DNA from: Sulfobacillus sp. | GTDB taxonomy: Bacteria; Bacillota; Sulfobacillia; Sulfobacillales; Sulfobacillaceae | NCBI GenBank assembly: GCA_027309085.1 | Contig: DAIDDL010000035.1 | Span: 1 to 42,106 of the forward strand | Reading direction: 5' to 3' | DNA: 42,106 bases | Shown: one piece after another, positions 7,498 to 42,106 of the stretch | Position numbering within the stretch: the stretch's first letter is position 1 | Layout of the letters: each line of letters begins with the position of its first letter | The notes under the pieces: generated by a model | Told to the model about the DNA's origin: nothing | The model's input: the letters and a program-made list of their open reading frames with translations, nothing else | The model's database searches: none | Made by a program: the position numbers and the translations under genes

Positions 7498-8504
7498 TAG
7501 ATGGAAGGGCTCGTATCGAACAGAACCTGCAGCACTTCCTGTTCGGAAATCGCGCCAAAGTATTCCCCCGTGGGCAGGGTGTGCAGCACCGGTGCGACCT
7601 CGGAGATTTGGTAACGCTTGCCGACCAGCGCTCCTTCAAATTCGTGAATGTCCCGCTGTCCCAAAAAGTCGCCGTAAATGCGGCAGGATCGGATCATGCC
7701 TTCTTCCACGAGCAGGCGCACATCAATGCTGCCCCCTGGGAATTTCTCATGGGCGGTCAAATTGAAGGCGGGGGACTTGCCCCAGTTCCAATCCCACGTC
7801 GCGTAACGGGTCTCGACTAAATTTTGCACCGCCGCCTGGTCTTCTGCACCCCAGGGATAGGGGGGTTCCAGACCCTGGTTATGGTCGCCGATAATGGCGG
7901 CCAATGTGCCGCTGAACTGAGCGAGAGTGACATCGGGGGGCAGATAGGGCTTGATGTTGGTCACCCGGCTGCGCACGGATTTGATGCCCTTGCTGGCAAT
8001 TTTGTCCTGACGCACGTTGAGGACCTGCGCCACGGCATCCAGTTCGGAATCAAAGAGAATCGTGCCGTGGTGCAACAGATGGGTGCTGGTCCGGTACTGG
8101 GCGTTTCCCGAGAACTTCTGGCCGTCGATGGTGATGTCGTTGCGGCTCGACAGTTCTGCCTTCACCCCGTAGTGGGCCAGTGTTTCAATGACGGGGAGAG
8201 TAAAAGATCGGAAATCATTGAAGCCCTGGCCTTTGGTGGAGACGACCAGGCTGAAATTCAGATTTCCTAAGTCGTGATAGACGGCTCCCCCGCCTGACAG
8301 CCTGCGGACGACGGCAATGCCGTGATCTTCAATATAAAGCTGATGGACCTCTTCCGCGGTATTCTGATACCGGCCGATGATCACGGCGGGAGAGTTCTGC
8401 CATAAAATCAGGTAATTGTGCGACGGGTCAAGGTGGCGGACGACGTACTCTTCGAGAGCGAGATTGAAGTAGGGGTCGTGCGACAGATTGGAAATGGGGA
8501 TCAT
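7497..8504 (-). CDS. lplA: Lipoate-protein ligase A
   Basis: 335-aa enzyme that activates free lipoate with ATP and attaches it to lysine of E2 and GcvH domains in 2-oxoacid dehydrogenases and the glycine cleavage system. Signatures are NLALEEYVVRH at the N-terminus, the lipoyl-binding loop VVRRLSGGGAVYHD, and GQKFSGNAQ with the conserved lysine. The C-terminal accessory domain (about residues 250-335) contains a KFPGGSIDVR segment, as in full-length bacterial LplA. The minus-strand start ATG 8504 is preceded by AAAGGAAGG with somewhat long spacing. It is monocistronic and ends in the shared terminator. Confidence 0.92.
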   Translation of the reverse strand: MIPISNLSHDPYFNLALEEYVVRHLDPSHNYLILWQNSPAVIIGRYQNTAEEVHQLYIEDHGIAVVRRLSGGGAVYHDLGNLNFSLVVSTKGQGFNDFRSFTLPVIETLAHYGVKAELSSRNDITIDGQKFSGNAQYRTSTHLLHHGTILFDSELDAVAQVLNVRQDKIASKGIKSVRSRVTNIKPYLPPDVTLAQFSGTLAAIIGDHNQGLEPPYPWGAEDQAAVQNLVETRYATWDWNWGKSPAFNLTAHEKFPGGSIDVRLLVEEGMIRSCRIYGDFLGQRDIHEFEGALVGKRYQISEVAPVLHTLPTGEYFGAISEQEVLQVLFDTSPSI

Positions 8505-8589
8505 GCGCTATAGCCTTCCTTTCTTCATTTTGCAGTGAGCGCTAGGTTGCAGATACTGCCCTCTATCATACCGCATTTCCCTGGAGGGC

Positions 8590-10033: not shown

Positions 10034-10918
10034 GTGCCACAAGAAGAGTGGTCTTTTATGCAAGTGGATGTGTTTGCGGATCAGGCATTGCAAGGCCACC
10101 CCGTGGCCGTATTTTATGATGTGCCGGCCTCATCCGGGAATGACGTCATGCAGGCGGTTGCCAGGGAAATGCACCTGCCGGAAACGGTGTTTGTCACGGC
10201 ATGCGCTGAAGACGCCGATCTATGCCTGGTGAAGATCTTTACCCCGACAAGCGAGGTGCCATTTGCGGGCCATGCGGCCATGGGCGCATATTTTGTTTTG
10301 CGGGATCAGGGGCTGGTCGGGGACGGGACGGTTCACCTGGCGGCCTCCGGGGAGACGCTGGCCTGCCATGCAGAAGGCCAGCAGTGGATTTGGATGACGG
10401 CGGCGCCGGCCAGCGTCCGCAGCACGAAGATAGGTCCCCGCGAGTTGGCGGCGCGTTGCGGGATGGATGCGGAGCTCATCAGTCCCATGATGCCTCCGGC
10501 TGTGGCCCGGACCAACCCAGAGCAGATGCTGCTGTTCGTGGAGAGCGCGCAGGCTTTGGCCGATCTGAACTTCAGCTTGGCCCACCTGGCAGCGCTGGAA
10601 GAAGAATGCGGGGTGCAGGGGGTTTATGTGCTGGCCCTCACCGGAGCGGGAAGCTATGCGGCCCGGTATTTCAGCAACGCGCTATCCGGGCCGCAATACA
10701 CCCTGGCGGCTGGGTCATCGGCCCTGGCGCTTGGCAGCTACCTGCTGTGCTGCGCGGGCGAGACGCAGCCACGGCGGTTTATCATATCCCAGGGAGAAGA
10801 CCACTTGCGCCCGTCTGAGGTTCACGTGCGTCTCAACGCGCAGACGCGGGGATCTTTGGAGGTCGGGGGGCAGGTGGTGGAAACACTCCGCGGAGTTGTG
10901 ACACCGTCACGGGCTTAG
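10034..10918 (+). CDS. PhzF-family isomerase/epimerase-like protein
   Basis: 294-aa cytoplasmic protein of the PhzF/diaminopimelate-epimerase fold. The N-terminus QVDVFADQALQGHPVAVFYD matches the family start, including the GNPxAV-like turn (here GHPVAV). FTPTSEVPFAGHAAMGAYFV is the central PhzF signature (usually P..E..FCGHAT). GTG 10034 lies six bases after GAGGAG and fits the family N-terminus; the frame is open further upstream but not PhzF-like. Physiological substrates are unknown for most members, and there is no phenazine cluster here. It overlaps tail-to-tail with the penicillin-binding protein gene by 12 bases. Confidence 0.85.
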   Translation: MPQEEWSFMQVDVFADQALQGHPVAVFYDVPASSGNDVMQAVAREMHLPETVFVTACAEDADLCLVKIFTPTSEVPFAGHAAMGAYFVLRDQGLVGDGTVHLAASGETLACHAEGQQWIWMTAAPASVRSTKIGPRELAARCGMDAELISPMMPPAVARTNPEQMLLFVESAQALADLNFSLAHLAALEEECGVQGVYVLALTGAGSYAARYFSNALSGPQYTLAAGSSALALGSYLLCCAGETQPRRFIISQGEDHLRPSEVHVRLNAQTRGSLEVGGQVVETLRGVVTPSRA

Positions 10919-41001: not shown

Positions 41002-41020
41002 CCCCTGTGAGGGGTTCTTT
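41002..41020 (+). terminator. Short terminator after the PIG-V-like gene
   Basis: CCCCT (41002-41006) pairs with AGGGG (41010-41014), loop GTG, followed by TTCTTT. The short stem makes it weak. Confidence 0.45.
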
Positions 41021-41131
41021 GGTGTTAGCTTGTTGAATATTTTTTATCGGGTTATAAAAATTAGTTTATTCATAGCCACCCCTTTGTGATAAGGTATATG
41101 TGTTATTTCTCACCGAAAGGAGGGGCTTGGA

Positions 41132-41650
41132 GTGACTCATGTCAAGAAATGGGCGGCTGTGGCGACTATGGGCGCATTGGCCCTGGCGCTTGCAGGCTGC
41201 GGCACGCAAAGCGTGGATGCCTCCCAATGGATGGTGGACCATCCGGGAACCCACACGGTGGATTTGAAGGTAGAGGGAATCTACAGCAGCGCGCAGCAGG
41301 TGAATACGTTCGATGGCTATACCAATGGCCAGCTCGTAATTACCATTCCGGTTGGATATCACGTGAACATGGACTTTATTAATAATGGACCTATTCCTGA
41401 ATCCGTCGGAATTTATAAGAATGATCACCTTGCCTTCCCAGGGGCCGGACAATCCTACCGTCAAGTTATGACATTCCCTTCGGCCGGCCTGGTGCCAGGA
41501 CAGTCACAGTCGTATACATTCACGGCCAGCCAGGTGGGTACCTACTCGCTGGCAGATGTGCTCAATGGTGACCCCAACCACACCCCGACAAGCGGCGTGT
41601 GGGATACCGTCAAGGTAGTACCCTCTGGCAATCCTTCAATGAGCAGCTAG
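41132..41650 (+). CDS. Sulfocyanin-like lipoprotein with lost copper ligands
   Basis: 172-aa extracytoplasmic lipoprotein: signal with lipobox LAGC (Cys23). The body follows the sulfocyanin pattern FDGYTNGQLVITIPVGYHV, FPGAGQS, and a C-terminal GTYSLAD...GVWDTVKV. In sulfocyanins the type 1 copper is held by His (PHSL), Cys (YYLVC), His and Met (GMWD). Here PHSL is PESV (Glu90), the Cys position reads Asp142 and the Met position Val156; only one possible His (150) remains. It may not bind copper in the usual way. GTG 41132 follows AAAGGAGGGG by six bases. Downstream lies a Tat-exported protein gene. Confidence 0.78.
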   Translation: MTHVKKWAAVATMGALALALAGCGTQSVDASQWMVDHPGTHTVDLKVEGIYSSAQQVNTFDGYTNGQLVITIPVGYHVNMDFINNGPIPESVGIYKNDHLAFPGAGQSYRQVMTFPSAGLVPGQSQSYTFTASQVGTYSLADVLNGDPNHTPTSGVWDTVKVVPSGNPSMSS

Positions 41651-41972: not shown

Positions 41973-42106
41973 GTGAGCAAAGTACCGAATGAACCGCCGG
42001 TTGAGCCGGAGAAGCCGCAGGAACAAGAATGGAGCCGCCGCCAGTTCCTGGTGGGCAGCGCCGCCATTGGGGTCGCCGGGGCGGTGACCCTGTTTGGCCG
42101 GCAGAC
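41973..42106 (+). CDS. Tat-exported protein, 5' part only (possibly Rieske)
   Basis: Gene cut by the window edge. GTG 41973 lies eight bases after GGGAGGAGG. The 44 visible residues are a charged, Pro/Glu-rich start followed by a twin-arginine signal (SRRQFLVGSAAIGVAGAVT). Rieske iron-sulfur proteins and other exported redox proteins begin this way, and the sulfocyanin-like gene nearby fits a respiratory cluster, but the mature part is not visible, so the identity is open. Confidence 0.7.
   Translation, partial: MSKVPNEPPVEPEKPQEQEWSRRQFLVGSAAIGVAGAVTLFGRQ

Follow-up and report, generated by a model that had tools for sequence, protein, structure and literature searches.

A Sulfobacillus lipoprotein of sulfocyanin descent with all four copper ligand positions replaced

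The lipoprotein encoded close to the end of the Sulfobacillus contig analysed here is, by its sequence, a descendant of the blue copper protein sulfocyanin in which all four copper ligands have been lost. The best-supported statement about it is a negative one, namely that it does not act as a type 1 copper electron carrier.

A sulfocyanin-like lipoprotein gene

The window is the entire contig C101 (42,106 bases) of a Sulfobacillus-like draft genome of 4.49 Mb (G000), and the gene of interest has the following parts.

41132..41650, + strand: gene of a PF06525-homologous, copper-less sulfocyanin-like lipoprotein (172 aa, GTG start)
41132..41200, + strand: type II signal peptide with lipobox LAGC (residues 20-23), from sequence
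41198-41200, + strand: codon of Cys23, the presumed lipid anchor and sole Cys of the protein, from sequence

The product matches PF06525 (SoxE) over residues 42-160 (E 1.5e-8; 34.7 bits, with the cut-off at 21; 32.1 bits in the whole-genome search) and falls far below the cut-off of the TIGR03094 sulfocyanin equivalog (25.1 versus 168.4 bits). It starts as a bacterial lipoprotein does, with a signal peptide and a lipobox Cys that is invariant in 16 sequences, and we infer that it is lipid-anchored on the outer face of the membrane. The scaffold motifs are retained, and the sulfocyanin-like lipoprotein of the original prediction is upheld. A cupredoxin fold would follow from homology; AlphaFold2, run on a five-sequence input, returned low-confidence models (pLDDT 40 for the whole protein and 46 for the mature domain). 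The closest relative, at 84% identity, is in S. thermotolerans Kr1 (CP019454.1).

Loss of the copper ligands

To locate the ligand positions, PF06525-related proteins of the class were aligned. At the columns where the genome's canonical paralogue has His, Cys, His and Met, the window protein has the residues listed here, each assigned from this alignment and from profile-profile comparison.

41399..41401, + strand: codon of Glu90, at the N-terminal copper His position
41555..41557, + strand: codon of Asp142, at the copper Cys position
41570..41572, + strand: codon of Asp147, at the second copper His position
41597..41599, + strand: codon of Val156, at the axial Met position

The same register was obtained with hhalign when 16 members of the clade described below were compared with 12 canonical proteins (probability 99.9%, E 7.8e-34). 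Sulfocyanin Q53765 has H110, C171, H176 and M181 as type 1 ligands, and the sulfocyanin signature is C-G-I-[AL]-G-H-A-[VAQ]-[SA]-G-M-W (PMC517927); the window protein has DVLNGDPNHTPTSGVW at that place and none of the His, Cys, His and Met ligands that define a functional sulfocyanin. The replacement of His, Cys and Met by Glu90, Asp142 and Val156, claimed from the letters of the window, is thus confirmed. The claim that most ligands had gone stands as to the loss and fails as to its extent, since all four are gone, with Asp147 in place of the second His. His151 was considered as a kept ligand and rejected, since the position is variable, with Asn in S. thermotolerans.

The lipobox Cys is the only Cys in the window protein and in all 16 aligned clade members checked. 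Because a type 1 copper site needs a Cys ligand and the sole candidate is Cys23, such a site is impossible in the window protein. A complete Cys-His-His-Met site formed by other residues, which had been named beforehand as what would overturn the prediction, is excluded by the lack of a second Cys.

The window's genome encodes four PF06525 proteins above the cut-off, and only the one on contig C168 has H/C/H/M at the ligand columns, so that the canonical paralogue for which a search had been proposed does exist. This protein and a paralogue in S. thermotolerans (at 1,873 kb, outside any cox cluster) keep all four ligands (MPHSVGLV ... ELACLVPGHIGVGMY). The paralogue on C11 (G000:C11:46228-46602, L069) has N/S/H/M, without the copper Cys, and belongs to a class of sulfocyanin-like lipoproteins conserved genus-wide (six rows in the tree). 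The fourth, on C114 (L071), has 561 residues with a long hydrophobic N-terminal part and shows N/S/Q/M. In the tree (midpoint root) the C11 and C114 classes lie apart from the clade of the window protein and from one another, so at least three separate ligand losses would have occurred if the canonical form is ancestral. Of the six PF06525 proteins in G017, an S. thermosulfidooxidans-like genome, only one has the four ligands intact.

Two fusions were seen in passing. C114-type proteins of about 560 aa (L071; L094 at G017:C1:1523 kb) occur genus-wide and join an N-terminal part without a Pfam family to a PF06525 domain devoid of the Cys and His ligands. In related genera and families, a c-type cytochrome domain (CxxCH) is fused to a canonical sulfocyanin domain (L013, L015, L019, L111, L112, L113).

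Conservation and selection

Each of the seven near-complete Sulfobacillus genomes searched has relatives with Glu in place of the first His, as do six genomes of a sister genus of the same family; a search for relatives in viral contigs found none. These Glu-bearing proteins form one clade (clade D, support 99/98) with three branches. D1, the type of the window protein, has Asp at the Cys position; D2 has Asn there and Gln replacing Met; D3 comprises the sister genus, with the second His changed to Ala, Thr or Pro, and D1 is paraphyletic with respect to it. Glu occupies the first His column in 20 of 20 clade D rows, and the Cys column always holds Asp or Asn. In the 16-row clade D alignment Glu90 and Tyr95 are invariant, and His77 and His99 are absent from D3. 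The Asp147 column holds Asn, Thr, Ala or Pro in other members of the clade.

For clade D pairs unsaturated in dS, dN/dS is 0.03-0.13, and such strongly purifying selection indicates that the window gene is functional and not decaying. Together with the replaced ligands, the lack of a Cys beyond the lipobox and the presence of canonical C168, it bears out the suggestion of a non-redox paralogue.

A protein from another family of the order (L110, G124) branches beside clade D on a long branch, has Y/S/H/M at the ligand columns and is perhaps an intermediate of ligand loss. On L087 (G013; 8093-8575 on the - strand and 10213-10494 on the + strand) there is an extra divergent clade D copy near a broken AcoP remnant.

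Genomic context

Two further features of the window flank the gene.

41018..41131, + strand: conserved upstream region with a T-rich stretch, TTTGTGATAAGGTATATGTGT and a GGAGG ribosome site, from comparison by eye
41973..42106, + strand: 5′ end of an AcoP-like Tat-exported cupredoxin gene, truncated at the contig end; relatives have coxB-coxA-coxC downstream

The Tat-exported redox-type neighbour of the original prediction is real. Compared with AcoP of A. ferrooxidans (PDB 7z3b) it gives E 6e-21, and it contains C-x6-H-x4-M, the AcoP spacing; AcoP homologues in Sulfobacillus cox clusters have been reported earlier (PMC4059628). An AcoP-like gene lies directly downstream on the same strand in nine of nine D1 loci, and in the six where the contig extends further, coxB-coxA-coxC come after it each time. 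The window stops partway through its AcoP gene, so coxBAC after the window copy is inferred from relatives. The last 77 bases of the window (42030-42106) match exactly an AcoP gene of contig C33 (L134, 1505-1581) while the part upstream differs, which suggests a collapsed repeat, with the assembly broken at a duplicated AcoP-cox block. The clade D-AcoP-cox block is present twice in both G017 and G018, and two of the copies lack the PMT_2-like upstream gene, so the repeated unit begins at or near the clade D gene.

Of the eight D1 copies in which the spacing between the clade D gene and AcoP was measurable, stop codon to start codon, two have 36 and 51 bp and six about 250-560 bp (322 bp in the window). 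By eye, the upstream region is strongly conserved with S. thermotolerans and parts of it are found in seven of nine D1 copies; the two copies that lie closest to AcoP lack the T-rich stretch and TTTGTGATAAGGTATATGTGT. This upstream region is the likely site of a promoter belonging to the window gene itself; no sigma-70 consensus was found in it.

D2 and D3 genes have no cox genes adjacent to them: D2 genes lie among LCP-type, SurA-like and other lipoprotein genes (named by eye), and D3 genes, in their other genus, among unrelated metabolic genes. Within the family AcoP is found in 12 of 13 genomes with clade D and in 9 of 21 without (Fisher p 0.005, with kinship ignored), and genomes that bear clade D also contain AcoP-cox clusters that lack a clade D gene.

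Possible functions

Our preferred reading, to which we assign a probability of roughly 45%, is that the window protein is a copper-free, non-redox lipoprotein of cupredoxin fold with a filled-in metal cavity, anchored to the membrane and accessory to the AcoP-aa3-type oxidase branch. The accessory role is drawn from gene order, co-duplication and co-regulation. The protein would be a docking, positioning or assembly partner of this branch in iron oxidation, and electrons would be carried by AcoP and CuA, not by the window protein. Invariant Glu90, invariant Tyr95 and Asp/Asn142 probably plug the old copper cavity through a hydrogen-bond network. Speaking against a tie to the oxidase are the D2 and D3 genes away from cox, the AcoP-cox clusters without a clade D gene and the occurrence of AcoP in genomes without the clade; in particular, as D2 and D3 are not beside cox, the function of clade D need not be oxidase-bound. 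A more specific version, which we consider unlikely, is that a structural cupredoxin plugged by the acids Glu and Asp tethers AcoP to the oxidase at the outer surface of this Gram-positive acidophile. If true, an iron-oxidation chain would dock a live cupredoxin on a dead one.

Nearly as likely as the accessory reading, given two clade D branches away from oxidase genes, is that the protein is a general envelope lipoprotein that uses a dead cupredoxin fold for a role at the surface, in acid stress or in binding, and that its place beside AcoP-cox is inherited linkage and not a sign of shared function. The D2 surroundings, with their LCP-type, SurA-like and other lipoprotein genes, the metabolic surroundings of D3, the mostly long gaps to AcoP with an apparent own promoter and the AcoP-cox clusters that do without a clade D gene all fit such a role. 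It is harder to reconcile with an AcoP order kept in every D1 locus, duplicated blocks included, and with how strongly Sulth_0453 and its cox genes are regulated together (PMC6315122).

We see a slim chance that the metal was exchanged, the alternative offered in the original prediction, with Glu90, Asp142 and their neighbours binding Fe, Ca, Mn or Zn. The invariant Glu and the constant Asp or Asn at the Cys position would suit this, as would the alignment of Glu90 opposite a nitrosocyanin Glu, were it significant. However, Asp147 varies and Asp142 is Asn in D2, which disfavours a conserved carboxylate metal site, and His77 and His99 are lost in D3. The low external pH also argues against it, as carboxylates are poor metal ligands at a pH of about 2; at very low external pH carboxyl groups would be largely protonated, making a hydrogen-bonded plug likelier than a carboxylate metal site.

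The two remaining explanations are highly improbable. A true type 1 copper sulfocyanin with misaligned ligands, as the PF06525 match and the routine annotation of relatives as SoxE might suggest, is rejected on sequence grounds as far as an ordinary type 1 site is concerned, given the lone lipobox Cys in the window protein and 16 sequences and the unambiguous hhalign register. A decaying pseudogene, suggested by the loss of all ligands, is rejected by intact conservation in the searched genomes of both genera, by dN/dS far below 1 and by the abundant transcripts of what appears to be the S. thermosulfidooxidans copy (PMC6315122).

Relation to published Sulfobacillus data

Published models of Sulfobacillus have SoxE/sulfocyanin as a likely carrier in iron oxidation (PMC4062416, PMC6315122, PMC6803676), and a sulfocyanin gene has been measured by RT-PCR in strain ST (PMC4062416). 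In S. thermosulfidooxidans a run of genes comprises Sulth_0449 (oxidase subunit 3), 0450 (coxI), 0451 (coxII) and 0453 (SoxE); Sulth_0453, reported to respond to iron, has high transcript counts and is up by a log2FC of 3.63 (~12-fold) without the competing iron oxidiser Leptospirillum, with 1.7-2.7 for its cox genes (PMC6315122). The order and position of Sulth_0449-0453 fit the D1 block at 421-426 kb of G017, and from gene order and spacing we take Sulth_0453 to be a copper-less member of clade D. A second regulated SoxE, Sulth_2749, is most likely the D2 gene at 2.830 Mb of G017 and would then probably be unable to bind type 1 copper. Counting tags back from hdrC/hdrB gives 2749 or 2750 for the D2 gene and 2746-2748 for the adjacent canonical gene; a forward count from the cytochrome b genes falls short by two or three tags for D2 and by more for the canonical gene. 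Both mappings presume that G017 is DSM 9293 or a close relative.

The annotation of this protein type as a sulfocyanin electron carrier is therefore wrong as it stands, and its published role probably is too. This matters for the electron path from Fe(II) to oxygen in Sulfobacillus, where 'sulfocyanin' was placed for the presence of PF06525 and the response to iron; a PF06525 match alone misleads as evidence of sulfocyanin function in this genus. The AcoP-like proteins are more likely to be the live electron carriers in these clusters.

Comparison with known systems

The nearest known relatives are sulfocyanin/SoxE proteins (PF06525, TIGR03094), to which the window protein is homologous along the whole domain, with shared scaffold motifs, and whose canonical bacterial members are also lipoproteins; they differ in holding the four copper ligands that are all replaced here. 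The same is true of the canonical paralogues of C168 and S. thermotolerans, which share the fold family and the lipoprotein-type start but keep the ligands. The likeness to A. ferrooxidans AcoP, in C-x6-H-x4-M and in the place before coxB, belongs to the neighbour and not to the window protein, and the neighbour has a Tat signal where A. ferrooxidans AcoP has an N-terminal TM helix.

Searching solved structures with the clade D profile gave no significant match, whereas the canonical PF06525 profile matches rusticyanin at 2e-10. The clade D profile does align Glu90 with a Glu of nitrosocyanin (PDB 1iby) at a non-significant E of 0.15, a residue which we take to be a copper ligand. The red copper site of nitrosocyanin consists of Glu plus Cys, His and His; nitrosocyanin keeps the Cys and two His, while the window protein has the Glu only and lacks a site of this type.

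Our literature search found no usable account of copper-less cupredoxins or of the nitrosocyanin Glu ligand. Ephrins, early nodulin-like phytocyanins and subunit II of quinol oxidases have copper-free cupredoxin folds with structural or binding roles. These belong to other families, whereas the window protein is of the sulfocyanin lineage, comes from an acidophile and is encoded beside an oxidase of the iron-oxidation type. Copper-free cupredoxin folds are thus already known elsewhere, and it is the sulfocyanin-derived variant that is new.
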